64,000 nucleotides of DNA from Sanguibacter gelidistatuariae (GTDB lineage Bacteria; Actinomycetota; Actinomycetes; Actinomycetales; Cellulomonadaceae). Made by a program: the position numbers and the translations under genes. The stretch is from positions 744,001 through 808,000 of the forward strand of contig NZ_FMYH01000001.1 in assembly GCF_900096585.1 (NCBI RefSeq), given 5' to 3'. The notes under the pieces are model-generated. The model was given only the letters and a program-made list of their open reading frames with translations, made no database searches and was not told where the DNA came from. Every line of letters starts with the position of its first letter. The first letter of the stretch is position 1. This document shows positions 12,843 through 53,409 of this stretch, one piece after another.

Positions 12843-12950
12843 ATGATGACCGGACGAGCGATGGGCACGGCGACGCCGAACTCCCGGCTGTCCGCGAGCT
12901 GTCTTCCCCATACCGGTGCCGCGCTCACCCGCCAGCTCTGTCGTAGCTGA
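12843..12950 (+). CDS. Cys-containing leader peptide (uORF)
   Basis: This is a short ORF of 35 codons (34 if translation begins at the second ATG, 12846). An AAGGAG ribosome site at 12833-12838 supports real translation. The peptide contains SASCLPH in the middle and ends LTRQLCRS, with Cys three residues from the C-terminus. Actinobacterial sulfur operons are often preceded by short leader peptides with C-terminal Cys residues that may sense cysteine supply. It lies in the long leader of the organosulfur cluster, followed at once by a hairpin. The attenuation role is inference. Confidence 0.55.
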   Translation: MMTGRAMGTATPNSRLSASCLPHTGAALTRQLCRS

Positions 12951-14454: not shown

Positions 14455-14465
14455 GAGGCCCGGAC

Positions 14466-22853: not shown

Positions 22854-22922
22854 CCTTGTGCGCCCCGGCGGTCGACGCAGCCGCCCCCGCATCACCCGGA
22901 CCCACCCCTCCCGAGGAACCCC

Positions 22923-24107: not shown

Positions 24108-24108
24108 C

Positions 24109-24873: not shown

Positions 24874-24973
24874 CCCTGGCCGCCGCGGCGGCCCATCCCG
24901 ACTTTTCCATCCCTCTGCTGTACCCGACCGCCGACCGCGCACCCGCGCCGTCGACCACCTGAAAGGCACTCCG

Positions 24974-26020: not shown

Positions 26021-26029
26021 TTCGTGAGT

Positions 26030-26069
26030 CGGCCGTGCGGCGCCCCCGGATGGGGGCACCGCACGGCCG
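26030..26069 (+). terminator. hairpin terminator or attenuator inside the sulfur cluster
   Basis: An 11-bp stem (CGGCCGTGCGG) continues after one C-A mismatch into a 6-bp GCCCCC stem with loop GGAT. It begins nine bases after the binding-protein stop and 63 bases before the oxidase gene. It may divide the cluster into two transcription units or allow partial read-through. Confidence 0.7.
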
Positions 26070-26132
26070 CGCAGCTCGGCACCGCAGCACCGTAGCAACC
26101 CGGAAAAGCAACAAGCAGGAAGCAGGAACGAC

Positions 26133-27326: not shown

Positions 27327-27424
27327 CCACCGCGCCCCGCTTCGCCTTCCCCGCCCTTGTCACCCCACCGCCGCTGCCACCCGCACCGCGCCCTCGCCCC
27401 ACCTTTCACCTCAGGAGACCTGCC

Positions 27425-28750
27425 ATGACCCGCGTCCCCCTCTCCATCCTCGATCTGGCTCCCGTGAGCGCGGGCGCGACCGGTGCGCAGTCCCTGCGCG
27501 ACGCCGTCGCGCTCGCCGAGCGGGCCGACACCCTCGGGTACACCCGCTACTGGTTTGCCGAGCACCACCTCTCCGCCGGGGTCGCCTCGTCCGCGCCGGC
27601 CGTGCTCACCGCGATCGTCGCGGCCCGCACCCAGCACCTGCGCGTCGGCTCGGGCGCCGTGCTCTTCAGCACGACCAGCCCGCTGCTGGCCGCCGAGCAG
27701 TTCGCCACGGTCGCGGCGCTGCACCCCGGGCGGATCGACCTCGGCGTCGGGCGCGCCTTCACCCCGCCGCCGACGCCGGGCGTCCCGGCCTCCGGCGAGG
27801 CGGCGACCACCCCGTCGAGCGGCGCGCCCTCCGCCCCGCCCTCCGCCCCGGTGGTGCCCGTCCGCGGCCCGAGCCCGTCCTCGGTCGAGCGCACAGTCGG
27901 GGGCGTGACCTTCCCGGCCGCCCCGCCGATCGACTTCACGGACTCCGCCCTGCGCGAGCGGATCCTCGCCCAGAGCCGGGTGATCTCCGTCAACCGCACA
28001 CCCAGGGACTTCCGCTCCGAGGTCGAGCTCATCCTCGGACTGCGCGCGGGCACGTACACCGATGCCGAGGGCACCCGCTACGCGAGCGCCGCGGTCGAGG
28101 GGACCGACGCCGAGCTGTGGGTGCTCGCCTCGAGCGGCGGGGAGAGCGCTCGCGTCGCCGGTGAGCTCGGGCTGCCGCTCGTGGCGAACTTCCACGTGAG
28201 CCCCGCGACGGTGCTCGACACGATCGCCAGCTACCGGGAGGCCTTCGTCCCCGGTGTGCTCGCCGAGCCCTACGTCGTCGTCTCCGCGGACGTGCTCGTC
28301 GCCGAGACCGACGCCGAGGCCGAGCGCATCGGCGCGCCCTACGCGCAGTGGGTGCTCTCGATCCGGTCCGGGCCCTCGGGGGCGATCACCTACCCGAGCC
28401 CGGACGCGGTCACCGCGCTGAACGAGGAGGAGCTCGCCGTCGTCGCGGACCGCCTCAGCACCCGGCTCGTCGGCTCGCCCGAGACGGTCGTCGCCCGGCT
28501 GGCCGCACTGCAGCGCGCGACCGGCGCCGACGAGATCATCACGACGACGATCGCCCACGACCCCGCCGACCGACTGCGCTCGGCCGAGCTGCTCGCCCAC
28601 GCGTGGGGACTGCGGGCGCCGGGTGCCGCCCCGGCGGCAGCCGAGCAGGCCACCGACGCGCCCAGCGTAGACACCAAAGCACAGGCCACCGACGCGGACA
28701 GCTTCTCCTCCGGGGTGACCGCGCTCGTCGGGACGGGTGCGCACTCGTGA
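27425..28750 (+). CDS. LLM-class flavin-dependent oxidoreductase, MsnO8/CmoO-like
   Basis: This 441-residue luciferase-like protein opens with LSILDLAPVSAGATGAQSLR and has YWFAEHHLSAGVASSAPAVL and LHPGRIDLGVGRA, as in the MsnO8-type group that includes Bacillus CmoO (YtmO). It is longer than usual because of a Pro/Ser/Ala-rich insertion at about 116-165 after GRAFTPPP and an extended C-terminal tail. AGGAG precedes the ATG at 27425. The stop overlaps the GNAT start (GTGA). The likely role is FMNH2-dependent oxidation of a sulfur compound. Confidence 0.85.
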   Translation: MTRVPLSILDLAPVSAGATGAQSLRDAVALAERADTLGYTRYWFAEHHLSAGVASSAPAVLTAIVAARTQHLRVGSGAVLFSTTSPLLAAEQFATVAALHPGRIDLGVGRAFTPPPTPGVPASGEAATTPSSGAPSAPPSAPVVPVRGPSPSSVERTVGGVTFPAAPPIDFTDSALRERILAQSRVISVNRTPRDFRSEVELILGLRAGTYTDAEGTRYASAAVEGTDAELWVLASSGGESARVAGELGLPLVANFHVSPATVLDTIASYREAFVPGVLAEPYVVVSADVLVAETDAEAERIGAPYAQWVLSIRSGPSGAITYPSPDAVTALNEEELAVVADRLSTRLVGSPETVVARLAALQRATGADEIITTTIAHDPADRLRSAELLAHAWGLRAPGAAPAAAEQATDAPSVDTKAQATDADSFSSGVTALVGTGAHS

Positions 28751-29346
28751 GCGTCGTCATCCGCCTGGTCGAGCCCGCCGAGCACGCCGCCGTCGCTGAC
28801 CTGCTGCTGGACGCCTACGGCAGCGACTACATCCTCTCCGAGGACTACCGCGCCTCCCTCGTGGAGGTCGCCGAGCGCGCGGCCGAGCACGAGGTCTGGG
28901 TCGCGGTGGACGGCGCGGTGGTCGACGGCACTGCGGCGCCAAAACCGGGCCCCGGCGTCGGGCAGCGCGGCGCGCGCGAGGTGACGCCCGGCGCGCTGCT
29001 GGGCACCGTCGTCACGCCGCGGCCCGGGCGGCTCATCTCCGAGCTGGCTCAACCCGGCGAGGTCGACTTCCGGCTGCTCGGCGTCGCGCCGGCCGCGCGC
29101 GGACGCGGCGTCGGCGAGCAGCTCACCCGCTTCGTGCTCGACCTCGCGCGGGCGCGCGGGGCGGAGCGCGTCGTCATGAACTCCGGGCCGCAGATGACTA
29201 CCGCGCACCGGCTCTACCACCGGCTCGGCTTCGAGCGGCTCCCCGCCCGCGAGACGCGCGTGCTCGACGACGGCACCCGGCTCTTCGCCTTCGGCTACGA
29301 CCTCGTCCCCTCCCACAACACCCACCTCCTGACAGCAAAGGCCTGA
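28747..29346 (+). CDS. GNAT N-acetyltransferase
   Basis: This is a 199-residue GNAT-fold enzyme. Seen: VDFRLLGVAPAARGRGVGEQL carrying the acetyl-CoA-binding RGRGVG loop, then VVMNSGPQMTTAHRLYHRLG in the last third. The GTG start at 28747 overlaps the LLM stop. It is the second acetyltransferase in the cluster, and together with 22248-22853 suggests N-acetylation steps. Low-complexity Gly/Pro/Arg residues occupy about 58-78. Confidence 0.85.
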   Translation: MSVVIRLVEPAEHAAVADLLLDAYGSDYILSEDYRASLVEVAERAAEHEVWVAVDGAVVDGTAAPKPGPGVGQRGAREVTPGALLGTVVTPRPGRLISELAQPGEVDFRLLGVAPAARGRGVGEQLTRFVLDLARARGAERVVMNSGPQMTTAHRLYHRLGFERLPARETRVLDDGTRLFAFGYDLVPSHNTHLLTAKA

Positions 29347-29348
29347 CC

Positions 29349-30485
29349 ATGCCCGTCGAGTTCCTCGGCATCGCGACCACGTCCGACGCCTCCGAGACCA
29401 CCGCCCCCACGACCAAGCCCTTCGACACCGACTACCTGCTGCGCATCGTGCGCGCCCACGAGGACAACGGCTGGACCCGGGTGCTCTTCGCCTACGGGCC
29501 CTCCGGCCCCGAGCCGTCGGTCCTCGCGTCCTACGTCGCGAGCAAGCTGGACACCGTCGAGCTGCTGCTCGCGCACCGCCCCAACGTGTCCTACCCGACC
29601 TTCGCCGCGAAGTCTTTCGCGACCCTCGACCAGCTCTCCCAGGGGCGACTGTCGGTCCACTTCATCACCGGCGGCAACGACCACGAGCAGCAGCGCGAGG
29701 GCGACACCCTCACCAAGGACGAGCGCTACGCCCGCACCCAGGAGTACATCCAGATCGTCAAGAAGGCATGGACCAGCGCCGAGCCCTTCGACCACGAGGG
29801 CGAGCACTACCAGTTCCGCGACTTCGTCTCCACGATCAAGCCCTACGACGGCCGGGTGCCGACCATCTCCTTCGGCGGGTCCTCCGACGCCGCATTCAAG
29901 GTGGGCGCCGCCGAGGCGGACATCTACGCCGTCTGGGGTGAGCCGCTGGCCAGCACCGCCGAGCAGATCGCCCGCGTGCACGACGCCGCAGCGCTCGCCG
30001 GGCGGGTGACCCCGCCTCGTATCCACGCGGCCTTCCGCCCGATCATCGCCCCGACCGAGGAGCTCGCCTGGGCCAAGGCCGAGCAGGTCCTCGGCCGGAT
30101 CGAGGCCCGCAAGGCTGCCCAGGGCGGGGTGCTCAGCGCCCGCCACCCGATCACCAACCCGGAGAACGCCGGCTCCCAGCGGCTGCTCGCGATCGCCGCC
30201 CAGGGCGACCGCCACGACACCGCGCTGTGGACCGCGACCGCCAAGGCCACCGGCGGCGCGGGCAACTCCAACGCGCTCGTCGGGACTCCCGAGCAGGTCG
30301 CGCAGGCGCTGCTGGCCTACTACGACCTCGGCGTGCGGATCATCTCCGCCCGCGGCTACGACCTGCTCGACGACGCGATCGACTTCGGTCGGTACGTCAT
30401 CCCGCTCGTCAAGGAGGGGGTGGCGGCGCGCGACGCGGAGGCGGCGCGGACGGCCCAGCTCGTGACCCAGGGGGCGGTGGCCTGA
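29349..30485 (+). CDS. LLM-class monooxygenase, SsuD-like (alkanesulfonate type)
   Basis: This 378-residue protein matches the SsuD-type FMNH2-dependent monooxygenase layout. Seen: VEFLGIATTSD at the barrel start, AHRPNVSYPTFAAKSFATLD, LSVHFITGGND, YQFRDFVSTIKPY and ISFGGSSDAAF. SsuD enzymes release sulfite and an aldehyde from sulfonates. Whether this one acts on sulfonates or another C-S substrate is not decided by sequence. The stop overlaps the start of the next LLM gene by one base. Confidence 0.85.
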   Translation: MPVEFLGIATTSDASETTAPTTKPFDTDYLLRIVRAHEDNGWTRVLFAYGPSGPEPSVLASYVASKLDTVELLLAHRPNVSYPTFAAKSFATLDQLSQGRLSVHFITGGNDHEQQREGDTLTKDERYARTQEYIQIVKKAWTSAEPFDHEGEHYQFRDFVSTIKPYDGRVPTISFGGSSDAAFKVGAAEADIYAVWGEPLASTAEQIARVHDAAALAGRVTPPRIHAAFRPIIAPTEELAWAKAEQVLGRIEARKAAQGGVLSARHPITNPENAGSQRLLAIAAQGDRHDTALWTATAKATGGAGNSNALVGTPEQVAQALLAYYDLGVRIISARGYDLLDDAIDFGRYVIPLVKEGVAARDAEAARTAQLVTQGAVA

Positions 30486-31582
30486 TGCGCTTCCAGGTCC
30501 TCGACATCGTCTTCAACCCCCCGCACCCCGTCACCGGGGAGGCCATCGCCCCGGCGGACCGGCTCAACCGGGTCGTGGAGACTGCCGTGCTCGCCGAGCA
30601 GCTCGGCTTCGACTCCTTCTCGGTCGGTGAGCGGCACGCGGGGGAGGTGCTCTCGTCGGCGCCCACGGTGATCCTCGGCGCGATCGCTGCGCGTACCTCC
30701 CGGATCCTGCTGAGCACCGGCGTCACGGTGCTATCCCTGCTCGACCCGATCCGGGTCGCCGAGGACTTCGCGACGATTGACCAGCTGAGCCGGGGGCGGC
30801 TCGAGGTCGCGATCGGCAAGGGCAACGAGGTGGCGCAGTACCCGCTGCTCGGCCTGGACATCACCAAGCAGTACGAGTACCTAGAGGAGAACTACGAGCT
30901 GCTGCGCCGGCTCCTCTCCGAGGAGGAGGTCACCTGGGAAGGGCGCCACCACTTCCCGGTCGACGGCGTCACGACGTTGCCGCGGCCCTTCGCCGGACCG
31001 TTCCGGATCTGGCACGGCTCGGCGACGTCGGCCTTCGCGGTCGACCTCGCCGCGAAATGGGGCGACCCGATCATCAGCGCCAACGCCCTGCAGCCGCGGG
31101 AGAACTACAAGGTGCTCATCGACCGGTACCGCGAGCAGTACGCCGCCCACGGGCACGACCCGGCCAAGGCGTTTGTCGGCTCGGGCTCGGGCGGGCTGTT
31201 CCTCGCGGACACGACCGAGCAGGCCATCGAGCAGTACCGGCCGTTCTACGAGGGCGCGGTCGCCCGGCAGGACCTGCGCGCCCACGACCCGGCCGCCGTC
31301 GGGAAGGTGACGTCTTTCCGCACGATCGAGGAGGCCGTCGACCGCGGACCCGCGCTCGTGGGGTCCCCGGAGCGGGTGGTGGAGAAGATCCTCGACTACC
31401 ACGCAAGCTTCGGCCACGACCTGCAGTCGGTGTCCATCAACCACCTGCTCGCCCCCGAGCACCAGGACGACGTGCTGCGCCGCTTCGCCGAGGAGGTCAT
31501 CCCCGCGGTGAAGGCCGAGGTCAAGACGGACCTGTGGAGCGCGGCGGACGCGGGGCGGGCGGCGGGGTTCACCGCGGCCTGA
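30485..31582 (+). CDS. LLM-class flavin-dependent oxidoreductase (LuxAB-like)
   Basis: This 365-residue bacterial luciferase-like protein is the last gene of the long sulfur cluster. Seen: FSVGERHAGEVLSSAPTVIL, LLDPIRVAEDFATIDQLSRG and GKGNEVAQYPLLGLD, all typical of the LuxAB-like LLM group. It overlaps the SsuD-like gene by one base (TGATG). A modest hairpin, CCCCG-N7-CGGGG, follows at 31597-31613. Substrate is unknown; context suggests an organosulfur compound. Confidence 0.85.
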   Translation: MRFQVLDIVFNPPHPVTGEAIAPADRLNRVVETAVLAEQLGFDSFSVGERHAGEVLSSAPTVILGAIAARTSRILLSTGVTVLSLLDPIRVAEDFATIDQLSRGRLEVAIGKGNEVAQYPLLGLDITKQYEYLEENYELLRRLLSEEEVTWEGRHHFPVDGVTTLPRPFAGPFRIWHGSATSAFAVDLAAKWGDPIISANALQPRENYKVLIDRYREQYAAHGHDPAKAFVGSGSGGLFLADTTEQAIEQYRPFYEGAVARQDLRAHDPAAVGKVTSFRTIEEAVDRGPALVGSPERVVEKILDYHASFGHDLQSVSINHLLAPEHQDDVLRRFAEEVIPAVKAEVKTDLWSAADAGRAAGFTAA

Positions 31583-41526: not shown

Positions 41527-42872
41527 ACGCCGTCTCCGAGGCGGTCGGGGTCTCAAAGCGGCTCAAGCGCCCGCCCCTGGGTCGTGACTTCGGGAGGCTC
41601 TGGACTGCCGCCGCCTTCAGCAACCTCGCCGACGGCCTCGGCCGCACCGCGGTGCCGCTGATCGCCACGACCCTGACCCGTGACCCGCTCGCGATCGCCG
41701 CGCTCGGCGCCATCGCCTACGTGCCCTGGCTCGTCTTCGGGCTGCCCGCAGGCATGATCGTCGACCGCTTCGACAGGCGCTGGATCATGGCAGGTGCCAA
41801 CGCGCTGCGCGGCGGGACGGCCCTCGTGCTCGCCATGATGACGGTGACCGGCTCCCTCACGATCTGGAGCCTCCTCGCGGGGGCGCTCGTCTTCGGCCTG
41901 GGGGAGACCCTCTTCGACAACGCCACGAATGCGGTGGTCCCCGCGCTCGTGGAGAGCCGCTCCCTCGACCGCGCGAACGGCTTCATGCAGGCCGCGCAGG
42001 TCACGATCGACAGCTTCGTCGCGCAGCCGATCGCAGGGGTGCTCTTCGCGGTGTCGATGGCCCTGCCGCTGTGGGTCGGCGCCGCCGGCTACGTGATCCC
42101 CGTCATCCTCGCGATCTTCCTCCCGCTCTCCGCCGCCCGCCCGCTCCGCCGGACGTCCGCCGCAGCCCCGCCCGCACCCGACGCGCCGGTCACGACCGAT
42201 GCCCGACGACGCAAGCCCGGGTCCGCCCGCGAGGCCACCTCCTACCTCTGGCACCACGAGTACCTGCGCGCGATGGTCATCTTCACCTCGGTTCTGGGCT
42301 GCGCCTTCTCCTTTGCCCAGGCACCGACGATCCTGTACTTCCTCGACGAGATGCACGTGAAGCCCGTGGCCATCGGACTGGTCACGGCGGGGATCGGCCT
42401 CGGTGCGCTTGCGGGTTCGCTGGTTGCGCCCACCCTGGTCGCTCGCTTCGGCCGCGGCCCGGTCATGCTCGGCGCCAACATCGCGGCGGGACTGTTCCTC
42501 GTCGGAGTCGGGCTTGCGCCCGAGGTGATCACCGCGGTCGTCGCCTACGCGGGCATGGCCTGCGCCGTCTCGATCTGGAACGTCCCGTGGGGCGCGCTGC
42601 GGCAGGCGATCGTGCCGAACGAGCTCTTCGGCCGGGTGCTCGGCATCATCCGGTCCTTCACGTGGGGACTGTTCCCCTTCGCGACGCTGCTCGGCGGCCT
42701 CGTCGCCCGCCACGACCTCCGGCTGCCCTACCTGATCGCTGCGGTCGTGACGCTCACCTCGACCGCGGTGTCCGTGCGGCTCTTGCTGAGAGCCTCGACG
42801 GGTGCGGGCGGTGCGGGCGGTGCGGGCGGTGCGGAGGTCGCGGGCGCAGCCAACAGCGGCCAGGCGACGTAG
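41523..42872 (+). CDS. MFS transporter, exporter type
   Basis: This 449-residue MFS protein has about 12 membrane segments. Seen: [40 protein letters not shown] in loop 2-3 and [20 protein letters not shown], typical of the enterobactin-exporter-like or macrolide-efflux-like MFS group. The GTG overlaps the ArsR stop. The last ~20 residues are a Gly/Ala low-complexity tail from a GCGGGCGGT repeat (about 42804-42835). Its 3' end overlaps the converging MFS gene by 145 bases. Confidence 0.85.
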
Positions 42873-44044
42873 ACCGGGATGTAGCGCCACATCACCGCAG
42901 CGCCGAGGACGGTTGCGGCTCCGACGGTGACCGCCGCGACGGACAGCGGCGCGAGCACTGCGATCCCGGCGACGGTCAGGGGGCCGACGAACATCCCGCC
43001 GTCGTGCATGAGGCGCCACGCGCTGAAGAAGGCCGCGCGCGTGGCCGCGGGCGCGACGTCGGCTCCCAACGTCATGATGACCCCGTTGCTCAGTCCGTTG
43101 CCGACCCCGAGGATGAGGGCCACCACCCCGAGCGTGGGAGTTGACGTGGCGAGGGTGAGCAGGAGGTATCCGGCAGCCAGGATGAGTAGGGACGGGACCG
43201 CGATCGCACGCCGCCCCAGGCGGTCCATGAGCAGGCCCGCCGGGTAGGAGACGGCCACGTCGACGGCCGCGCTGACGCCGAAGATCAGGCTGATCGTCAC
43301 CGGGTCGACGCCGAGGTGGTCGGCCCACAGCGGGAGGACCGCCATGCGCGACGCCCGTGCCAGCCCCATGAGCAGCACCCCGACGCCCAGCGTCGCGAGC
43401 AGCCTGCGGTGGGTGACGATCACGTCGCCGAGGGTGACCCGGCGCGAGGACCCGGCCGCGGCGGAGCGGCTGGCGGGGCCGGAGCCGGGGAGGTCGGGCA
43501 GGCGTGCCATGAGGACCGCCGCGAGCAGCACGGCGCCGAGCTGGACGGCGAAGCCGCCCCTTGCGCCCATGGCGTGGATGGCGAGGGCGCCGAGAAACGG
43601 CCCGACGAAGAAGCCGAGCCGCATCATCCCGGCGAGCGTCGACATCGCCCGGGCTCGCCTGGCGAAGGGGATGACCTCGGTGAGGTAGCTCTGGCGCGCC
43701 AGCCCCCACACCGCGTTGGCCAGCCCGGTGATCACGACGCCGGCCCCCAGCAGCCACAGCGTGTCCGCGAACAGGCACAGGGCCACCCCGACGACGCCGA
43801 TCGCGCTGCCGAGGAGGATCGCCCCGCGCTCGCCCAGGCGGACGACGAGCCGCCCCGCGGGGAGGTCACCGATGATGGTGCCCAACCCCGCGAGGGCGAC
43901 GACGAGCCCCGCCACTCCGAGGGACGCGCCCAGGCCACGCGCGGTGAGCGCGATGACCGGGGCGGCTGCCCCCTGCCCGAGGCCGAACATCGCGGCCGGG
44001 AGGTAGACGGTGGCGAAGAGCGACCGCTGCGACGGTGCGCTCAC
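42728..44044 (-). CDS. MFS transporter of the SAM-riboswitch operon
   Basis: This 438-residue MFS protein has about 12 segments. Seen: [20 protein letters not shown] in loop 2-3, and [20 protein letters not shown] in the second half. The GTG at 44044 overlaps the stop of the upstream LLM gene (GTGA). It is third in the riboswitch-controlled operon 46672-42728, so it may import a sulfur compound or export a by-product. The last ~35 residues (Pro/Ala-rich then [11 protein letters not shown]) run into the converging MFS gene. Confidence 0.82.
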
Positions 44045-45432
44045 GCGAGGGGCGACAGCGCTTCCTGCGGCGGGACGACCTCGCCCTGGCCAGCGTCCGT
44101 CCCCGCGCACGGGGTCCGCGGGTCGCTCAGCCCGAGGTGTCCGCGCAGCGTCGTAGCTGAGTACTCGGTCCGGTACGCCCCGCGCTCCTGGAGCTCGGGG
44201 ACCAGCTGGTCGACGACGTCGTCCAGGCCGCTGGGCACGATCCACGGGGTGATGTTGAAGCCGTCTGAGGCGCCCGTGCGCACCCAGCGCACCAGCTCGT
44301 CGGCGACGGCCGAGGGCGTCCCGACGAAGCCGCGCTGGCGCTCCTGGGCGATGATGAGCTCGCGGATGGAGAGGTTCTCGGCCTCCGCCCGGGCCCGCAA
44401 GGCGCGGGCGATCTCGTGCGGTGACCGCCCGTGCTGGGCGGAGCCGCGGGTGCCGTCGATCTCGGCGATGGCCGGGTCGTGGGCGGGCAGCGGGCCGTCC
44501 GGGTCGTAGCCGGAGAGGTCCTCTCCCCACACCTGACCGAGCAGAGACAGCGCGGTTGCGGGAGTGACCTGCTGCTCCTTGACCCACCGCGCCTTCTCGA
44601 GGGCCTCGGCCGGGGTGTCCCCGAGCACGAACTGCGTGCCGGGCAGGATCTTGACCGCGTCGGGGTCGCGCCCGATCGCGCGGGAGCGGGCGCGGATGTC
44701 CTCGGCGAAGGCGAGTGCGTCGTCGTAGTCGGAGCCGTGCGCGGAGAAGATCACCTCGGCGTGACTCACGGCGAAGTCCCGACCGTCGGGGGAGTCCCCG
44801 GCCTGGAAGAGCACCGGGTGCCCCTGCGGGCTGCGCGGGAGGGTGGGGACCGTGGTGAGGTCCACGGTCGTCCCGGTGAAGGTGACCGGCTGCTGGGTGA
44901 GCGCGGCGTCGTCCCAGCCGTTCCAGATCGCCTGGGCCGCGCGGACGAACTCCCCGGCGCGCGCGTAGCGCTGGGAGTGCTCGAGCCAGCCGCCGCGGCG
45001 GAAGTTCTCGCCGGTCCAGGCGTTGTCTGTGGTGACGATGTTCCACGCGGCCCGCCCGCCGGAGAGCACGTCGAGGCTGGCCAGACGGCGGGCGAGGTCG
45101 GCCGGGTCGTTGTAGGTGACGTTCTGGGTGGCCACCAGCCCGATGTGGGTCGTGATCGCGGCGAGGGCCGCGAGCTGGGTGATCGCGTCGGGGCGCCCGA
45201 CGACGTCGAGGTCGTGCAGCTGGCCGCGCTGCTCGCGCAGGCGCAGGCCCTCGCCGAGGAAGAACGCGTCGAAGAGCCCCCGCTCGGCGGTCGTGATGAT
45301 GCGCCGGAAGGTGGCGAAGTCGATCTGGGAGCCGCTGGCCGGGTCGGACCAGATGGTCGAGTGGTTGACGCCCTGGAAGAAGACGCCGAGGTGCACGTGC
45401 GCGTGCGGTCGCAGCAGGTCGGTGCGGGTCAT
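44041..45432 (-). CDS. NtaA/SnaA/DszA-family FMNH2-dependent monooxygenase
   Basis: This 463-residue canonical LLM protein has LGVFFQGVNHSTIWSDP, GEGLRLREQRGQLHDLDVVG, GRAAWNIVTTDNAWTGENFR and a C-terminal EYSATTLRGHLGL. It is closely similar in layout to 14466-15887. The ATG at 45432 has GAGGAGA upstream. It follows the short LLM gene by ten bases and is under the SAM riboswitch, so it is probably made when methionine/SAM is scarce and releases sulfur from an organic donor. Confidence 0.88.
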   Translation of the reverse strand: MTRTDLLRPHAHVHLGVFFQGVNHSTIWSDPASGSQIDFATFRRIITTAERGLFDAFFLGEGLRLREQRGQLHDLDVVGRPDAITQLAALAAITTHIGLVATQNVTYNDPADLARRLASLDVLSGGRAAWNIVTTDNAWTGENFRRGGWLEHSQRYARAGEFVRAAQAIWNGWDDAALTQQPVTFTGTTVDLTTVPTLPRSPQGHPVLFQAGDSPDGRDFAVSHAEVIFSAHGSDYDDALAFAEDIRARSRAIGRDPDAVKILPGTQFVLGDTPAEALEKARWVKEQQVTPATALSLLGQVWGEDLSGYDPDGPLPAHDPAIAEIDGTRGSAQHGRSPHEIARALRARAEAENLSIRELIIAQERQRGFVGTPSAVADELVRWVRTGASDGFNITPWIVPSGLDDVVDQLVPELQERGAYRTEYSATTLRGHLGLSDPRTPCAGTDAGQGEVVPPQEALSPLA

Positions 45433-45442
45433 GGTGATCTCC

Positions 45443-46672
45443 TCAGGCGTTCGCGGGGACGGGGGCGGTGGCGAACGTGGTCGCGGGATCCGTCGCGAAA
45501 CGGTTCGCGGGGTGCGCGAGCCCAAGCGTCTGGCGCAGGGTCGCTCCGGGTTGCGGGGTGGGGGTGAGACGGGCGACCCGCAGGGCGGGCAGCACCTCGC
45601 GGACGAGGACGGGAAGGTCTTCGTCGAGCTCGGAGGTGAGCAGGCGGACGCCGTCGACGACCGCGGCCAGCTCGGTCAGCAGCGCGACCAGCCCGGCGGC
45701 GTCACCCACCCACCGCAGTCCCGGGCGAGCCTCGGCTGCCGCATTGAAAGCTGCCGCATCAAAGGCCACCGCATCGAATACCACCGCGTCGAGGGCGGCG
45801 GCACGCTGGGCGCCGGTCGCCGCCGACGTGCTCAGCGTGACCGTGACGTTCGCGAAGACGAGCGGGGTGCCCGCGGCGCGCGCGGCCTCGGCGGCCACCG
45901 CCACCGAGGCGACGTCCTCGCCGTCGACGAGCGCGACGTCGGTCAGGTCGGCGGGCACTGTCCCGACGCGGGCGACGACGACGCCCTGGCCCTGCGGGGA
46001 GCGCGGGACGATGAGCGGCCCCTTGACGGTGAACGGTGCCCGCGCGCCGTCGGGCAGCGCACGCGAGGCGGGGGAGGCCGGCTCGCCGGTCCCGGCGCTC
46101 GTGAAGTCCACGTAGTGCAGGCGCTCGCGGTCGATGTAGCGCCCGGTCGCGGTGTCGCGGATGACGGCGTCGTCCTCCCAGGAGTCCCACAGCGCGCGCA
46201 CCACCTGCACGACGTCGGCGATCTCGCCTGCGAGGGCCGCTCCCTCGGGGACCGGACGGTCGAGGGCGGCGCGTGCGCCGGGGACCGGGCCCGCGCCGAC
46301 GAGCCAGCCGGCCCGGCCCGCGCTCGCGTGGTCGAGGGCGCTGAGCTGGCTCGCGGCGTGGAAGGGCTCGACGAGGGCCGGGTGGACCAGCGGTACGAGG
46401 CCGATCCGCGAGGTGAGCGGGGCGACGAAGGCCGCGCGGGTGACGGCGTCGATGCGCGCTGCGCCGTGGGGGCCGGGCAGGAGGGAGTCCTCGAAGGTGA
46501 CGAAGGTGATGCCGGCGTTCTCCGCGGCGGCGACGAGGTCGCGCACGCGCTGGGGGGAGGCGGCGTCCTGGGCGGAGCTGGCGGCGAGGTGCGCGCCCGG
46601 CCCGTCGAGCTCGAGGGCGAGGTGCAGGGTGGGTGGGACCGGTGGGACAGGTGGGGCGGGGCGGTGGGTCAC
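45443..46672 (-). CDS. LLM-class monooxygenase (short NtaA-like partner), diverged
   Basis: This 409-residue relative of 13276-14454 shares LHLALELDGPGAH, WDSWEDDAVIRDTATGRYID and the C-terminal TLRQTLGLAHPANRF. The core GRAGWLVGAGP and a middle region with FDAVAFDAAAFNAAA low complexity look degenerate next to canonical LLM enzymes. The GTG at 46672 has AAGGAG upstream. The same order, short partner then canonical NtaA-type enzyme, occurs at 13276-15887. It is the first gene after the SAM riboswitch. Confidence 0.78.
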   Translation of the reverse strand: MTHRPAPPVPPVPPTLHLALELDGPGAHLAASSAQDAASPQRVRDLVAAAENAGITFVTFEDSLLPGPHGAARIDAVTRAAFVAPLTSRIGLVPLVHPALVEPFHAASQLSALDHASAGRAGWLVGAGPVPGARAALDRPVPEGAALAGEIADVVQVVRALWDSWEDDAVIRDTATGRYIDRERLHYVDFTSAGTGEPASPASRALPDGARAPFTVKGPLIVPRSPQGQGVVVARVGTVPADLTDVALVDGEDVASVAVAAEAARAAGTPLVFANVTVTLSTSAATGAQRAAALDAVVFDAVAFDAAAFNAAAEARPGLRWVGDAAGLVALLTELAAVVDGVRLLTSELDEDLPVLVREVLPALRVARLTPTPQPGATLRQTLGLAHPANRFATDPATTFATAPVPANA

Positions 46673-46706
46673 GTGGACTCCTTGATCATGACGACGACGA
46701 ACGCTT

Positions 46707-46725
46707 GCTGCCGCGGTGCGGCAGC
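46707..46725 (-). promoter_or_regulatory. hairpin below the SAM aptamer (expression platform candidate)
   Basis: On the minus strand GCTGCCGC and GCGGCAGC form a perfect 8-bp stem with loop ACC, starting two bases after the aptamer's closing GACC. It lies 35 bases before the LLM start codon. It could act as a terminator or compete with the aptamer. Confidence 0.5.
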
Positions 46726-46727
46726 CG

Positions 46728-46808
46728 GGTCTCTTTCTCGGGGCACCCAGTCGTTGTCGTCGGGGTTGCCGTGACACCAGCCGAGCCTTCGCGTGTCATC
46801 TCTTGACC
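46728..46808 (-). promoter_or_regulatory. SAM riboswitch (SAM-I/SAM-IV superfamily)
   Basis: Read on the minus strand, the 81 bases run from GGTC to GACC, which pair as P1. Inside are the hallmark conserved segments GGCAACC and GGGTGCC, a P2 formed by TGACAC/GTGTCA around GCGAAGGCTCGGCTG, and the CCCGAGAAAGAG end block. This matches the SAM-I/SAM-IV core known to bind S-adenosylmethionine in actinobacterial sulfur genes. It lies in the leader of the LLM-LLM-MFS operon, 56 bases upstream of the first start. Confidence 0.8.
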
Positions 46809-46855
46809 GTGCGGGAACGTATCGCCTGGTTCCGCGCTCGACCAGTCATCCCTCG

Positions 46856-46871
46856 GAAATCTCATGATGTG
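46856..46871. promoter_or_regulatory. 16-bp element shared by both SAM-riboswitch operons, copy 1
   Basis: GAAATCTCATGATGTG (plus-strand reading) is identical to 51489-51504. In both places it lies 47-50 bases upstream of a SAM aptamer on the minus strand, just upstream of the likely -35 region. The core ATCTCATGAT is partly palindromic. It is probably an activator site for sulfur genes. Confidence 0.65.
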
Positions 46872-47044
46872 AACGCGAATCGTTCGACTGGTGAGTTGCG
46901 GGGTCTCAGCCCGCGGTATTCTGCGCCCGCCGATTGACTCCGCAGCGGCGGGTCCCTAGGTTCGGCGCTCACCACCACCCCGACCGTGCCCGGCGCCAGC
47001 TGGTGCGTGCCGGACGCTGGTTCAGCCGCACCGAGGAGCCCACG

Positions 47045-48574
47045 ATGGCCGCAGTGACCGTTCGCGAGAGGCCGGCGCGCCTCCCCGTGCGCACGACGGC
47101 GGGCGAGCGGCGCCTGCTGATCATCTGCCTGGCGGTGGGTTTCACCACCCTGCTCGACCAGTCGATCCTCACCGTCGCCGTGCCCTCGCTGCGCGCCTCC
47201 TTGGGGGCCGGCACCGCCGACATCCAGTGGATGCTCGCCGGCTACTCCCTCGCCTTCGCGGTCGCGCTCGTCCCGGCCGGGCGGCTCGGTGACGCTTACG
47301 GACGCAAGGGGTTCCTCATCGGCGGGGTGGCTGCCTTCTCCCTGCTCAGCGTGGTGGCCGCCACGGCCACCTCGCCCACGGTGCTCGTCACGGCGCGGTT
47401 GCTCCAGGGGGCCGCCGCGGGCACGGCCAACCCCCAGGTCATCGGCCTCGTCCAGGACCACTTCTCCGGCTGGCAGCGCACCCGGGCGCTCGGGGCCTAC
47501 GCGACGGTCGCCTCGTTCTCGGGGATCATCGCGCCGCTCATCGGCGGGGCGATCCTCACCGTCGGGGGTCACGACGGGGCCTGGCGGATGGTTGTCGCCC
47601 TCAACATCCCCTTCGGTCTCGTCACGGCTGCGCTCGCCATGCGGTGGGTGCCTGGGCGGTCCGCGTCGCCAGCCGGGCCTGCGCCTGGGGTTGGAGAGCC
47701 TGGAGCGTCCCGGGCGCATCAAGCGTCCGTCCGGCGCGGTGCGCGAGTGCGCCTGGACGGCGTCGGGCTCATCCTCTTCGCCCTGGCCACTGTCAGCCTG
47801 CTCGTCCCGGTCATCGCGCTCTCGGGGTCGCAGTCCTGGGTGATGACGACGTCGACGTGGCTGTGGTCGATCGCCGCGCTCGCGAGCGCGCTCGCCTTCG
47901 TCGTATGGGAACGGGCCTACCACCGTCGTGGGGGCACCCCGATCCTGCTCCCCGGTCTCGCGCGCTCGCCCGGGTTCGCACTCGGCACCCTCGTGGCGAC
48001 CTTCTGGTTCGGGGCCACCCTCGGGCTCTCCCTCGTCCTCATGCTCTTCCTCCAGGAGGGGGTCGGTCTCAGCGCCTTCGAGGCGGGCTTCGTCACGACC
48101 CCCGGAGCCGTGGCCTCAGGGATCTGCTCGGCGCTGAGCTGGCGCCTGGTGGCCCGGTTCGGCCGGCGCGGCGTCACGGTCGGGCTCTGGGTCATCGTCA
48201 TCAGTCTGCTCGCGACCACGGCCGTGGTGACCTGGGTGCCGGTCGCGGTCGTCGCCGTGGCGCTGGCCGCCGCGCAGGTGCTCACCGGCGTCGCCGGCGG
48301 GCTCGTGCACGCCCCCAACCAATACCTCACCCTCGAGCACGCGCCGGCCGGGGCCAACGGGCTCGCGGCAGCGTTCCTGCAGGTGACCCAGCGGGTATCG
48401 GCGACGATCTGCTTCGCGGCCCTCGGCGGCATCTTCCTCGCCTCGGCCGTCCCCGGGGACCTCGGGACCTACCGCGGGGCCGCGGCGGTCGGGATCGCGG
48501 TGACGGCTGCGCTCGTCGCGGCGGCCGCCCTGAGCTCGATGCTCGCCGACCGGTTCGGCGAGGTGACCCGATGA
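47045..48574 (+). CDS. MFS transporter, DHA2 family (14-segment type)
   Basis: This 509-residue protein has the DHA2 features: FTTLLDQSILTVAVPSL, WMLAGYSLAFAVALVPAGRL then GDAYGRKG, and about 14 hydrophobic segments. GAGGAG precedes the ATG at 47045; the longer frame to 46934 lacks a ribosome site. It begins a three-gene operon with overlapping starts (GNAT, aldo/keto reductase), lying between the two SAM-riboswitch operons. Export of a drug or metabolite is the usual role. Residues about 205-245 form a Pro/Ala/Ser-rich loop. Confidence 0.87.
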   Translation: MAAVTVRERPARLPVRTTAGERRLLIICLAVGFTTLLDQSILTVAVPSLRASLGAGTADIQWMLAGYSLAFAVALVPAGRLGDAYGRKGFLIGGVAAFSLLSVVAATATSPTVLVTARLLQGAAAGTANPQVIGLVQDHFSGWQRTRALGAYATVASFSGIIAPLIGGAILTVGGHDGAWRMVVALNIPFGLVTAALAMRWVPGRSASPAGPAPGVGEPGASRAHQASVRRGARVRLDGVGLILFALATVSLLVPVIALSGSQSWVMTTSTWLWSIAALASALAFVVWERAYHRRGGTPILLPGLARSPGFALGTLVATFWFGATLGLSLVLMLFLQEGVGLSAFEAGFVTTPGAVASGICSALSWRLVARFGRRGVTVGLWVIVISLLATTAVVTWVPVAVVAVALAAAQVLTGVAGGLVHAPNQYLTLEHAPAGANGLAAAFLQVTQRVSATICFAALGGIFLASAVPGDLGTYRGAAAVGIAVTAALVAAAALSSMLADRFGEVTR

Positions 48575-49029
48575 CCCTCGTGACCAGCGCCGTCGGGTGG
48601 ACGCACCCCGACGCCGAGACGCTGCGCACCCAGATGACGGCGGAGCTCGGCCCCCGCTACGCGTCGCTGCGGCACTCTCGCCCCGCCCGGATCGACGTCG
48701 ACCCGGCGACGGTCCTCGTCACCCTCGTGGTGCACGACGGCGCCCTGCCCGTGGCGACCGCCTCGTTGCGCCACGTGGGTGGCGCCCATGAGGTCAAGCG
48801 GGTGTTCGTGGGCCAGGACTATCGTCGTCGAGGGCTCGCTGGGCAGCTGCTCGGCGCCCTCGAGGACCACGCGCGCGAACTCGGCGTCCGGCGCCTCGTG
48901 CTCCAGACGGGAGTGCGACAGCCGGAGGCCGTCGAGCTCTACGAGCGCCTCGGCTGGCAGCCCGTCGAGCCCTTCGGTGAGTACACCGGTGACCAGTACA
49001 GCCTCTGCTACGCCAAGGAGATCTCATGA
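48571..49029 (+). CDS. GNAT N-acetyltransferase
   Basis: This 152-residue GNAT enzyme has [20 protein letters not shown] carrying the acetyl-CoA loop and [20 protein letters not shown]. The start overlaps the DHA2 transporter stop (ATGA), and its own stop overlaps the aldo/keto reductase start. A transporter-acetyltransferase pairing suggests modification or efflux of a small toxic compound, which is inference. Confidence 0.86.
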
Positions 49030-50060
49030 CCGACCATGCCGCCGCAACCGATGACACGCCCCGCGTCCCCGGGGCATCCTTGCCCCGTCGCGTGCTCGGT
49101 TCGCCCGAGCACGGCACCGCGCTCGAGGTGAGCGCCGTCGGCCTGGGTGGGATGTCTCTCACCGGTGCCTACGGGCTCACCGACCCGGGAGAGGCGGAGG
49201 CCACCGTGCGGCGTGCCCTCGACCTCGGCGTGACGTTCTTCGACACCGCCGACGTCTACGGAGCAGGGGAGAACGAGCGGTTGCTGGGCAGGGTGCTGCG
49301 CTCCCGCCGCGACGACGTCGTGCTCGCCACGAAGTTCGGGTTCGTCCACCGGGACGGACGCGAGGTCGACGGCCGTCCCGACTACGTCCGGCAGGCCATC
49401 GACGCGAGCCTGGGCCGGCTGGGGCTCGACCACGTCGACCTCTTCTATCTGCACCGCGTCGATCCCCAGACACCTGTCGAAGAGACCGTCGGTGCGCTCG
49501 CCGAGCTCGTGGAAGCGGGCAAGATCCTCAGGATCGGCCTGTCCGAGGCCTCGGCTTCGACGATCCGCCGCGCGCACGCGGTCCATCCGATCGCCGCGGT
49601 CCAGAGCGAGTACTCCCTCTTCCACCGTGGGGTCGAGCGTGAGGTGCTGCCGGCCCTGCGGGAGCTGGGGATCGGCTTCGTGCCGTTCTCCCCGCTCGGG
49701 CGAGGCATCCTCACGGGGACCGTCGTCTCGAATGCCTTCGACGCCGGCGACGCCCGCGCCGGTCACGAGCGCTATCGCGGGGCCGCCTTTGAGTCCAACC
49801 GCCTCCTGGCCGACCGTCTCGCCGTCCTCGCGGCCCGGCGCGGGGTGAGCCCAGCTCAGCTGGCCCTGGCTTGGGTCCTCGCCCAGGGCCAGGACGTGGT
49901 GCCGATCCCCGGCACCCGACGCGCCGCCCACGTCGAGGCGAACGTCGGTGCCGCGGCGATCGACCTCACGGCGCAGGAGGTCGAGGAGATCTCCCGGGTC
50001 GTCCCGTCGAGCGAGGTCGCCGGGGCCCGTCACCCCCAGGCGCACCTGCTCGAGGAGTAG
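49026..50060 (+). CDS. aldo/keto reductase
   Basis: This 344-residue NADPH-dependent oxidoreductase has the AKR barrel and catalytic tetrad region: [17 protein letters not shown] with Asp and Tyr, LATKFGF with Lys, and [10 protein letters not shown] with His. Also seen: [13 protein letters not shown] and the cofactor loop [17 protein letters not shown]. It closes the operon with the DHA2 transporter and GNAT genes (ATGA overlap). An imperfect hairpin terminator follows 13 bases after the stop. Substrate is unknown. Confidence 0.9.
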
Positions 50061-50073
50061 TCGAGGAGTACGC

Positions 50074-50111
50074 GACAGGGCTGGCACCTCCCCCGAGGTC
50101 CCAGCCCTGTC
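50074..50111. terminator. bidirectional hairpin terminator
   Basis: GACAGGGCTGG (50074-50084) pairs with CCAGCCCTGTC (50101-50111), and the inner ACCTC/GAGGT pairs around CCCC with one mismatch between the two stems. It lies between the converging aldo/keto reductase and flavin reductase genes and probably serves both. Confidence 0.78.
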
Positions 50112-50136
50112 CCGTCCGCCGCCGTCGACCGGCGCC

Positions 50137-50676
50137 TCAGATCGCCGTGTGGTCGCCGATGCGGTGGTAGGTGCGGTCGTGGAAGACCAGCGGCTGGGTG
50201 TCGGCACGAGTCGCTGACTGCGAGGCCAGCACCGAGACGAGATAGCTGTCCCCGATCGGGGTGCGCTGGACGACGCGTCCGCGCAGCCACGTGAGGGCGC
50301 CGTCGATCACGACCTCACCGGTGGGCAGCGCGGTCCAGCCGCCCGCGGCGAAGCGGTCGATGCCCGACGTCGCGAACCGCGCCGATACGTCGTCCTGGTC
50401 GTCGGCGAGGAAGCTCACCGCGACGCTCGCGGCCTGGGCCAGGGCGGGCCAGGAGGATGACCCGGAGGCGATCGAGAAGGCGAGCAGTGGCGGCTCGGCC
50501 GAGACCGAGATGACCGACGTCGCCGTGAAGCCGACGGGCCCGTCCGGTCCCACGAGGGTGACCACCGCGACGCCGGCCGGGTGCTGGCGGAACACGGTCT
50601 TGTACTCCTCCGGGGTCAGCGTCGCGGCATCGGCGAGCAGGATCCGGGCGTCGCGGTCGGTGTCCTGGATGGTCAT
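50137..50676 (-). CDS. flavin reductase-like, FMN-binding split-barrel protein
   Basis: This 179-residue protein has the flavin-reductase fold: YKTVFRQHPAGVAVVTL, GPVGFTATSVISVSAEPPLL and FSIASGSSSWPAL. The ATG at 50676 overlaps the stop of the FMN reductase (ATGA on the minus strand). It would make reduced FMN for the LLM monooxygenases. Having two unrelated reductases in one operon under a SAM riboswitch suggests shared or tuned FMNH2 supply. Confidence 0.88.
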   Translation of the reverse strand: MTIQDTDRDARILLADAATLTPEEYKTVFRQHPAGVAVVTLVGPDGPVGFTATSVISVSAEPPLLAFSIASGSSSWPALAQAASVAVSFLADDQDDVSARFATSGIDRFAAGGWTALPTGEVVIDGALTWLRGRVVQRTPIGDSYLVSVLASQSATRADTQPLVFHDRTYHRIGDHTAI

Positions 50677-51311
50677 GCCGTCACCCCCACGAGGTCGGCG
50701 GAGGCCGGGAGCGGGGCTGTGCCGGCGTCGTCGGGCAGTCCGACGGCGCGGCGCAGCGCGCGGGCCGACTTGGCCAGCCATGCCGCGACCGGTGCGTCGA
50801 GGTCGGCGAGCTGGGACTCGGTGAGGGAGAGCGCGCGGGTGGGCACGATCGCCCCGAGCTCGACGAGCACGGGGCGCAGGTGCACCTCGCCGGCGAGGGC
50901 GTGGGCGGGGTTGCCCGAGACGACGAGCGGGACTGCGACGACCCCGGCGAGGCCGTCGGGTCCGTAGAGGTCGAGGAACGCCTTGAGCAGGCCTGTGTAG
51001 GAGGCCTTGTAGACGGGGGAGGCGATGACGGCCACCGTGGCGGCGGCGAGGGTCGCCGTCGCGGCATCCGCAGCGGGGTGGTCGGCGGTGAGGATCTCGG
51101 GGGCGAAGGTCGCCAGGTCGATCGTCTCGATGCTGGTGGCCTGCGTGCTGGACGGGCCGTCCAGCCGTCCGTCCAGCAGCGCGGCGATCTGCTCGCCGAC
51201 CGCGGTCGCGGCGCTCAGGGTGCGCGAGCCGGCGCGCGGGTTGCCGGAGACGACGACCACGGAAAGATCGGGGCGAGTCCCGGCGTCGGGCGCCAGGTGT
51301 GTGTGCGACAT
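50673..51311 (-). CDS. NAD(P)H-dependent FMN reductase (SsuE/MsuE-like)
   Basis: This 212-residue flavodoxin-like reductase has LSVVVVSGNPRAGSRTLSAA (phosphate-binding loop), VAVIASPVYKASYTGLLKAF and a flavin-contact GLAGVVAVPLVVSGNPAHAL. SsuE-type enzymes supply FMNH2 to alkanesulfonate and related monooxygenases. GAAGGA lies before the ATG at 51311. It is directly downstream of the second SAM riboswitch and, with the split-barrel reductase, likely serves the seven LLM enzymes in this window. Confidence 0.9.
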   Translation of the reverse strand: MSHTHLAPDAGTRPDLSVVVVSGNPRAGSRTLSAATAVGEQIAALLDGRLDGPSSTQATSIETIDLATFAPEILTADHPAADAATATLAAATVAVIASPVYKASYTGLLKAFLDLYGPDGLAGVVAVPLVVSGNPAHALAGEVHLRPVLVELGAIVPTRALSLTESQLADLDAPVAAWLAKSARALRRAVGLPDDAGTAPLPASADLVGVTA

Positions 51312-51359
51312 GAGGTGTCCTTCGGTCCGTTCACGCTTGCCGTACCGGTTGGCACAGCC

Positions 51360-51439
51360 AGGTCATCTCCCGGAGCACCCCGCCGTGAGTGGGGGTTGCT
51401 GTCCGACCAGCCGGGGCTTCGCATCGGTTCTCGTGACCT
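51360..51439 (-). promoter_or_regulatory. SAM riboswitch (SAM-I/SAM-IV superfamily), second copy
   Basis: On the minus strand AGGTCA and TGACCT close P1 over 80 bases. The interior has GCGAAGCCCCGGCTGGTC, AGCAACCCCC and GGCGGGGTGCTCCGGGAGA, a close match to the actinobacterial SAM-IV-like pattern (AGCCCCGGCT, GCAACC, GGTGC, CCGGG). It precedes the FMN reductase gene by 48 bases. It differs from the first copy at GCAACC/GGTGC rather than GGCAACC/GGTGCC, which is a compensating change at one paired position. Confidence 0.85.
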
Positions 51440-51448
51440 TGTGGAACG

Positions 51449-51476
51449 GGTATAGCAATGACCGCGCGCTTGTCAG
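51449..51476 (-). promoter_or_regulatory. promoter of the FMN reductase operon
   Basis: On the minus strand, CTGACA (51476-51471) and TATACC (51454-51449) are 16 bases apart. Transcription would begin within a few bases of the SAM aptamer's first base at 51439. The fit of promoter to aptamer start supports both. Confidence 0.6.
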
Positions 51477-51488
51477 CGACTTGGCGGA

Positions 51489-51504
51489 GAAATCTCATGA
51501 TGTG
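51489..51504. promoter_or_regulatory. 16-bp element shared by both SAM-riboswitch operons, copy 2
   Basis: GAAATCTCATGATGTG, identical to 46856-46871. Here it ends 13 bases upstream of the -35 box at 51476, in a position suited to an activator. Confidence 0.65.
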
Positions 51505-51564
51505 GTCGGCGCCTGCTCACACTTAGGGTTCGCGGCGATGAGCAGGTCCGCTCCGGCGATCTGG

Positions 51565-51850
51565 TCACGCTCGCCACCGGTTGGCGGGACGGGCGAGGCC
51601 GAGGTGGTCGCGCGGCGTGGTCCCCGTGTACTCCTCACGGAAGATTCCGCGGGCCCGCAGCAGCGGCACGACCTCCTCGACGAAGGTGTTCAGGCCGCCG
51701 GGCAGGGTGGGCGGCATGACGGCGAAGCCGTCGGCGGCGCCCTGAGTGAACCACTCGGTCATCGTGTCCGCGACCTGCTCGGGCGTCCCGGCCACCACCC
51801 GGTGACCGCGCCCGCCGGCGAGGCGGTGCAGGAAGTGTTCTCTCGTCTCA
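51565..51850 (-). pseudogene. C-terminal remnant of an NtaA/SnaA/DszA-family monooxygenase
   Basis: About 95 codons match the family's C-terminal part: LAGGRGHRVVAGTPEQVAD, GAADGFAVMPPTLPGGL, then VPLLRARGIFREEYTGTTPR and LGLARPANRWRA. The N-terminal ~350 residues are absent; upstream sequence in this frame is antisense to gdhA and meaningless. It lies upstream of the FMN reductase operon and probably marks a deleted LLM gene of the same sulfur locus. The right-hand boundary is approximate. Confidence 0.75.
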
Positions 51851-51957
51851 CCTGCTGTGCGAATCTGATCCGTGGGCTGAGACGTTGTAACGTCATGTTT
51901 CGCGCTGCCGATCCGGGTCCCGACCTGCCACGGAATGTGCAGACAGCACAAGCCTGA

Positions 51958-53409
<1,452 letters not shown>

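Follow-up and report, generated by a model that had tools for sequence, protein, structure and literature searches.

SAM-IV riboswitches precede luciferase-like monooxygenase and flavin reductase operons in Sanguibacter gelidistatuariae

Introduction

The SAM-IV class of S-adenosylmethionine (SAM) riboswitches (Rfam RF00634) has been described by cryo-EM (PMC6890682), and the targets named for it in the source texts examined are O-acetylhomoserine sulfhydrylase (PMC3774663) and cysteine desulfurase (PMC8079986). Here we describe two SAM-IV aptamers, designated A and B, in a 64-kb stretch (the window; 71% GC) of the 4.04-Mb genome of Sanguibacter gelidistatuariae (contig NZ_FMYH01000001.1, positions 744,001 to 808,000). 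Both share the stems P1, P2a, P2b, P3 and P5 and the pseudoknots PK-1 and PK-2 with the cryo-EM structure, but their targets differ from those named in these texts and are flavin mononucleotide (FMN)-dependent monooxygenases and flavin reductases.

Other described systems resemble parts of this locus. The ssu and seu genes of Corynebacterium glutamicum likewise serve sulfur scavenging from sulfonates, under the activators SsuR and CysR, the repressor McbR and a TGAAT-type motif (PMC2580772); that genome also harbors a SAM-IV, but the account of ssu and seu available from this source mentions no riboswitch for them. For actinobacterial cys operons, leaders with runs of Cys codons near the stop and no clear terminator have been predicted (PMC1262725). 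Finally, structure 7e36 is a heterodimer of two luciferase-like monooxygenase (LLM) proteins, NtfO1 and NtfO2, with FMN docked into NtfO2 by its authors (PMC8027225).

We propose, with a probability of roughly 0.78, that two operons are co-regulated, with aptamers A and B forming their 5' leaders, and would turn on a sulfur-scavenging set at low SAM. The parts of this proposal that were computed are the aptamers, the operon layout, the gene families and the linkage in relatives.

Results

Identity and structure of the aptamers

A search of the whole window with Rfam cmscan gave exactly two matches over the SAM-IV gathering score of 38 bits, both SAM-IV and both full length (model positions 1-116).

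51328..51438, minus strand: SAM-IV aptamer B (P1, P2a/b, P3, P5, PK-1, PK-2); RF00634, 84.7 bits, E = 1.1e-13
46696..46808, minus strand: SAM-IV aptamer A; RF00634, 67.3 bits, E = 9.3e-10

This bears out the original prediction of two minus-strand SAM-class riboswitches and fixes their type as SAM-IV. The positions first given for them (51360-51439 and 46728-46808) span P1 to P3, without the 3' hairpin P5 or the PK-2 strand. No further Rfam family exceeded its cut-off anywhere in the window, and a permissive scan of positions 10500-53000, up to E = 1, returned nothing besides A and B. The cmscan output displays only the best match of a clan, and not the overlapping lower matches of that clan (SAM-I and others); as SAM-IV was the match kept at both sites, it is the best of its clan, and an identity as SAM-I or SAM-I/IV was rejected. 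With filters off, a second model, built partly from sites A and B, scored B at 102.1 and A at 82.1 bits, the next best match in 42000-52500 reaching 14.7.

Aligned over 110 letters, the two aptamers agree at 74 (67% identity). PK-1, which joins the P2 loop with the strand after P3, has five pairs in each, CCCGG/CCGGG in B and CTCGG/CCGAG in A, so that both sides differ and pairing is kept. In PK-2, the P3 loop pairs with the strand that follows P5, over 5 bp in B and 4 bp in A. We aligned A and B with 27 aptamers from relatives (n = 29) to a model that contains the stems and lacks the pseudoknots, and which therefore favors the stems in pair counts; here, standard pairing was found in 94.3% of 1041 cells and two-sided changes at 23 of 36 pairs. 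Neither covariation value was reached in any of 500 shuffles, and sliding the partners lowered pairing to 30.5-43.7%. The pseudoknot columns, taken as the best register on the same alignment with the published fold as a guide (the structural account in PMC6890682), were paired in 95.9% of cells for PK-1 and 80.7% for PK-2, the latter with two-sided changes at all five pairs. Sequence and structure thus mark A and B as true SAM-IV riboswitches; each occupies the 5' leader of a gene whose family is sulfur-related, and both would be expected to bind SAM.

The genome harbors a third SAM-IV (contig C17:717621-717736, 114 bits), which precedes a gene for a SufS-like, desulfurase-like aminotransferase class V protein scoring below the SufS cut-off.

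Two operons and their counterparts in relatives

Scans of open reading frames (ORFs) and protein families agreed with the gene order proposed at the outset. Aptamer A heads an operon of two LLM genes and a major facilitator superfamily (MFS) transporter gene, and aptamer B heads the genes of an SsuE-like protein and a flavin reductase.

46678..46683, minus strand: Shine-Dalgarno sequence AAGGAG of operon A (sequence, folding)
45443..46672, minus strand: LLM1, divergent luciferase-like protein; PF00296, 53 bits; GTG start at 46672
44041..45432, minus strand: LLM2, FMN-dependent monooxygenase of the NtaA/DmoA family; TIGR03860, 368 bits (cut-off 279.7)
42728..44044, minus strand: MFS transporter; PF07690, 134 bits; GTGA overlap with LLM2
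51317..51322, minus strand: Shine-Dalgarno sequence AAGGAC of operon B (sequence, folding)
50673..51311, minus strand: SsuE-like FMN reductase; PF03358, 81 bits; matches to FMN reductases in the PDB; ATG at 51311
50137..50676, minus strand: flavin reductase (HsaB/RutF/HpaC-like); PF01613, 111 bits; all NCBIfam matches below cut-offs

The genes are tightly packed, with LLM2 starting 10 nt after LLM1 and the flavin reductase gene overlapping the SsuE-like gene by ATGA. The end of the aptamer match lies 23 nt from the start codon in operon A and 16 nt in operon B.

We asked how this arrangement fares in relatives (loci numbered with L). A scan of genome contigs with LLM2 gave 259 relatives, and the best 80 of the 259 were analyzed; the SAM-IV counts around them cover 1.57 Mb, and absence means absence within the DNA examined for each locus. 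SAM-IV was present in 19 of the 80 loci, in 27 copies, and stood co-directionally within 4 kb upstream of LLM2 in nine. Four loci from three genera have a single cluster in the order SAM-IV-SsuE-flavin reductase-LLM1-LLM2 (L061 and L078 in Cellulomonas, L066 in Krasilnikoviella and L103 in Cellulosimicrobium), and the two operons of the window therefore correspond to one SAM-IV-headed cluster. As all four genes stand together behind one SAM-IV in these loci, the prediction that oxygenases and electron suppliers are controlled jointly is well supported. L056 (Puerhibacterium) has SAM-IV-flavin reductase-LLM1-LLM2 with no SsuE, and L052 (Cellulomonas) and L054 (Nakamurella) have SAM-IV-LLM1-LLM2.

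The last two loci bear on whether aptamer A works at all. It has been drawn out above that A scores 67 bits against 85 for B and has the shorter PK-2, and its leader folds contrary to a simple OFF switch (see below), all of which would fit SAM control that is functional in operon B only, with A a decaying copy. We hold this to be most improbable: A maintains PK-1 through two-sided changes, its core motifs GCAACC and GGGTGC are intact, and the LLM1-LLM2 relatives at L052 and L054 have a SAM-IV at the equivalent place.

SAM-IV is common beyond these loci: all six genomes of the genus have between one and three copies, and it occurs in 134 of 150 genomes sampled from the family. Twenty family loci chosen by riboswitch match, with most of the top-scoring ones left out, contributed 26 further SAM-IV copies. 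First genes after SAM-IV, picked by script as the first long downstream ORF rich in G+C at third codon positions (short leader ORFs being skipped), were scanned with Pfam (n = 30; 16 came from LLM2-anchored loci, which biases the set). They comprised 10 LLMs, 9 ATP-binding cassette (ABC) importer parts (4 permeases and 5 SBP_bac_5), 2 FMN_red proteins, one each of flavin reductase, riboflavin kinase, MFS, nitroreductase, aminotransferase I/II and aminotransferase V, and 3 without a match. Among the 14 from riboswitch-picked loci, LLMs accounted for 8, flavin or FMN reductases and ABC importer parts for 2 each, and an aminotransferase V for 1; the last had no match. The arrangement had been called unusual; this is not supported, given that SAM-IV before LLM, flavin reductase or importer genes recurs in the window's family, Nakamurella and Streptomyces.

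Two further arrangements were seen. In Kineococcus vitellinus (L059:7836-8439), a SAM-IV directly precedes a stand-alone riboflavin kinase gene, a function in FMN supply. In five loci, two SAM-IV copies on opposite strands point away from each other at a distance of about 155-225 nt (L052:8443-8818, L053:7225-7612, L061:2033-2475, L078:7199-7636 and L103:7100-7540).

Enzymes and a probable substrate class

LLM1 scores 109 bits against TIGR03860 over part of the profile (22-189) and is not over the curated cut-off, and so is named only as a divergent LLM protein. The best PDB match of LLM2 is 7e36_B (NtfO2; 4.9e-71), followed among others by nitrilotriacetate (NTA) monooxygenase, YtnJ, DszA and dimethyl-sulfide monooxygenase, and LLM1 also matches the partner chain 7e36_A (4e-21). 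LLM1 lies immediately upstream of LLM2 in 77 of the 80 loci, and in two of the three exceptions the DNA examined begins less than 150 bases from LLM2. Because of the 7e36 matches and this adjacency, LLM1 and LLM2 likely form a heterodimer with LLM2 as the FMN subunit. The likeness to NtfO1-NtfO2 extends to two LLM proteins matching the respective chains, but the Ntf enzyme serves antibiotic tailoring.

The last point invites a reading in which the LLM operon has nothing to do with sulfur supply and might, for instance, export or modify a secondary metabolite: NtfO2 belongs to a nargenicin-like antibiotic pathway, and the MFS protein of operon A resembles drug efflux carriers, with a score below the cut-off. 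This is very unlikely in our view, considering the SAM-IV control, the homology of LLM2 to YtnJ, DszA and dimethyl-sulfide monooxygenase, and the clustering in relatives with SsuE-like, ABC importer, GNAT and M20 genes.

The "organosulfur" class of substrate put forward originally would follow from family and context. S-alkyl cysteines are used through a route of N-acetylation, oxidation and deacetylation, and the ytmI/yxe-type S-alkyl-cysteine operons of Bacillus subtilis are controlled by CymR/YtlI and are not known to be under a SAM riboswitch. YtnJ of these operons is a relative of LLM2, and GNAT, M20 peptidase, amino-acid ABC and riboflavin kinase genes, as found there, also lie near SAM-IV and LLM genes in the relatives. 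Since these neighbors recall the S-alkyl cysteine route, thioethers are a good guess; the substrate may be an S-alkyl cysteine in N-acetylated form, a different thioether or a sulfonate.

The best NCBIfam match of the SsuE-like gene is SsuE (TIGR03567) at 89 bits, under its cut-off of 164 bits, which is why we name it SsuE-like and not an SsuE equivalog. The genome has four FMN_red matches, and only the one in the window comes after a SAM-IV. It has 20 LLM domain matches, of which 8 (in 7 genes) are in the window. Upstream of operon B lies a fragment of such a gene.

51565..51804, minus strand: C-terminal remnant of an LLM monooxygenase; TIGR03860 profile positions 356-422, 88 bits

This remnant is 58% identical over 74 residues to the C terminus of the LLM at 13276-14454. 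Divergent from operon A, an MFS gene at 46934-48574 (plus strand) encodes a protein 56% identical to an MFS that follows a SAM-IV in L052; a decayed SAM-IV before the window gene was considered and rejected, a search with filters off giving nothing above 6 bits at its promoter on the right strand. A second organosulfur-looking cluster, without SAM-IV, occupies 21984-31411 (plus strand), with genes for GNAT, an ABC permease, an ATPase, SBP_bac_3, a DAO oxidase, a second GNAT and three LLMs.

Promoters and a shared upstream element

An exact 16-mer, CACATCATGAGATTTC, is common to the upstream regions of operons A and B. Putative -10 boxes follow it; they are read from the sequence only.

51489..51504, minus strand: CACATCATGAGATTTC, operator-like element of operon B; 66 nt before the aptamer
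46856..46871, minus strand: CACATCATGAGATTTC, operator-like element of operon A; 63 nt before the aptamer
51449..51454, minus strand: putative -10 box TATACC of operon B (extended, TGC TATACC)
46818..46823, minus strand: putative -10 box GATACG of operon A, placed by eye at the position equivalent to TATACC of operon B

A TATAC/TAGAC box stands 14-17 nt before the aptamer in 13 of 16 leaders compared, the exceptions being site A, L056 and L135; a consensus promoter scan found no promoter at the -10 box of operon B. The last 15 letters of CACATCATGAGATTTC occur as two exact copies only in the 4.04-Mb genome, with one more place at up to two mismatches. From the 130-nt regions preceding 89 SAM-IV copies, we removed 22 that were more than 60% identical or too short, leaving 67 promoters. 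GAGAY starts at -61 to -53 in 28 of the 67 and is preceded by C or T in all 28, giving YGAGAY; 500 base shuffles, which do not preserve dinucleotides, averaged 0.8 and never exceeded 4. The other 39 lack GAGAY at that place, some having TGAGAA there.

These data suggest that the shared element is the site of a putative activator acting with the riboswitch. No regulator was identified for the GAGAY element, and the SsuR/CysR motif of C. glutamicum was rejected because its TGAAT-type consensus does not fit. One might instead take the 16-mer and GAGAY for promoter architecture or common descent. The 39 promoters lacking it would agree with that, as would a strict element-plus-TTGAC pattern, which matched at 3 places in the six genomes of the genus, two of them preceding the SAM-IV with the highest score in its genome and the third lying elsewhere, while the backward pattern matched once; the strict pattern missed the window's own two sites and was judged too strict a test. 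We think this alternative unlikely, since 28 promoters at most 60% identical share the motif within one 9-nt bin and the element lies upstream of the -35 region.

Leaders rich in cysteine codons in relatives

In 18 of 56 SAM-IV copies, the first start with a Shine-Dalgarno sequence within 70 nt opens an ORF of 20-60 residues. The 18 are not independent, several being close relatives of one another. At least two Cys are found among the last eight residues in 16 of the 18, compared with 28 of 398 control ORFs from the same loci, for which the Shine-Dalgarno threshold was 5 of 6 matches (4 of 6 for the cases) and from which the cases were not removed. The Cys fraction in the leaders is 7.7%, against 2.8% in controls and 3.0% in shuffles (maximum 5.3%); with 5.8% in the +1 frame, the placement of Cys near the stop is stronger evidence than Cys content overall. 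The leaders lie in L054, L061, L063, L064, L078, L103, L116, L118, L122, L124, L134, L137, L139, L140, L144 and L146, with at least two terminal Cys in all but L054 and mostly LLM or ABC genes next. These leaders differ from the ones described for actinobacterial cys operons in PMC1262725 in that they directly follow a SAM-IV aptamer. No title joining Cys leaders to SAM-IV was among the matches listed in a literature search.

Neither operon A nor operon B has a Cys leader. Elsewhere in the window, a short ORF, MMTGRAMGTATPNSRLSASCLPHTGAALTRQLCRS, with a Shine-Dalgarno sequence (12843-12950, plus strand) lies upstream of a second LLM pair (13276-14454 and 14484-15887), which is followed by SBP_bac_5/permease genes from 15939. 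This pair has relatives in L137 and L146, where a SAM-IV precedes a Cys-rich leader; the copy in the window is without SAM-IV. A decayed SAM-IV before the pair at 13276 was rejected, as the search with filters off reached 9.2 bits at best in the stretch and nothing above 6 bits at the promoter on the right strand.

These observations make a stacked sensing of SAM and cysteine possible in relatives. More tentatively, and at slightly less than even odds, sulfur control there may have three layers: an operator around -58 for the putative activator, the SAM-IV aptamer and a riboswitch-gated Cys-rich leader peptide. The window has the parts separately: operons A and B have a SAM-IV but no such leader, and the Cys-bearing leader at 12843-12950 has no SAM-IV.

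Discussion

By the convention of the riboswitch class, the genes of operons A and B would be switched on when SAM falls. Beyond the computed results, we infer SAM binding, the OFF direction, control at the translational level, an activator and the substrate. Transcription would probably start a few bases before each aptamer, and the shared operator-like element points to probably one sulfur-starvation activator for both promoters. When SAM is plentiful, the bound aptamer would lower expression, a direction taken from the known class, most likely by hindering ribosome loading; the distance from the end of the PK-2 strand to the Shine-Dalgarno sequence is 8 nt in B and 16 nt in A. When SAM is scarce, operon B would give the FMN reductase and the flavin reductase, and operon A the probable LLM1-LLM2 monooxygenase and the MFS carrier. 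Reduced FMN from the products of operon B would feed LLM2, which may oxidize an organosulfur compound and release usable sulfur.

How the switch might act deserves separate consideration. A terminator scan found no intrinsic-terminator-like site between aptamer and start in either leader, and this together with the spacings of 16 and 23 nt makes control of ribosome loading the most economical reading. In ViennaRNA folds, enforcing the aptamer lowers the mean unpaired probability of the Shine-Dalgarno sequence (AAGGA) in B from 0.64 to 0.32, but in A it rises from 0.61 to 0.83. Shine-Dalgarno sequestration as a common switch was accordingly set aside, folding being for it in B and against it in A; because minimum free energy folding cannot model pseudoknots, folding is weak evidence either way. 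Transcriptional control, through termination within the first gene by Rho or at a hairpin, could accommodate the discrepancy between the leaders, and a role for Rho in actinobacterial leaders that lack terminators has been put forward (PMC1262725). We nevertheless consider it quite unlikely here, with no terminator-like site in the leaders and so short a gap between aptamer and start.

Several observations weigh against the proposed low-SAM induction of a sulfur-scavenging set through both leaders. In A, the Shine-Dalgarno sequence opens on enforcing the aptamer and the free fold leaves no base of the start codon unpaired, contrary to what a simple OFF switch would show; PK-2 of A is also short. 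Each aptamer has one non-standard pair (P2 in B, P3 in A). The best PDB match of LLM1 is not the heterodimer chain but 3sdo, an NTA monooxygenase (3.3e-32, residues 43-232), followed by YtnJ. Finally, the second LLM pair of the window (13276-15887) lacks SAM-IV, as do 61 of the 80 LLM2 loci within the DNA examined, so that the link between SAM-IV and LLM2 is not obligatory.

The aptamers belong to a known class, and their arrangement recurs and is not unique; the target set is under-described in those parts of the literature that were examined. Our open-access literature search returned no paper joining a SAM-IV riboswitch with a monooxygenase, none joining a SAM riboswitch with a luciferase-like monooxygenase and, for SAM-IV and sulfonate, nothing on SAM-IV control of sulfonate genes. 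Relative to the sulfhydrylase and desulfurase named in the source texts examined, the present results widen SAM-IV targets to FMN oxygenases, flavin reductases, importers and one riboflavin kinase. The leaders form a ready set of RNAs for studying SAM-IV control and, with start codons only 16-23 nt away, are suited to testing how SAM-IV controls expression. The results also point to a putative sulfur activator and a possible stacked SAM/cysteine sensor; if three-layer control is true, such operons for uptake and LLM proteins in the relatives would need low levels of SAM and of charged Cys-tRNA together in order to open.

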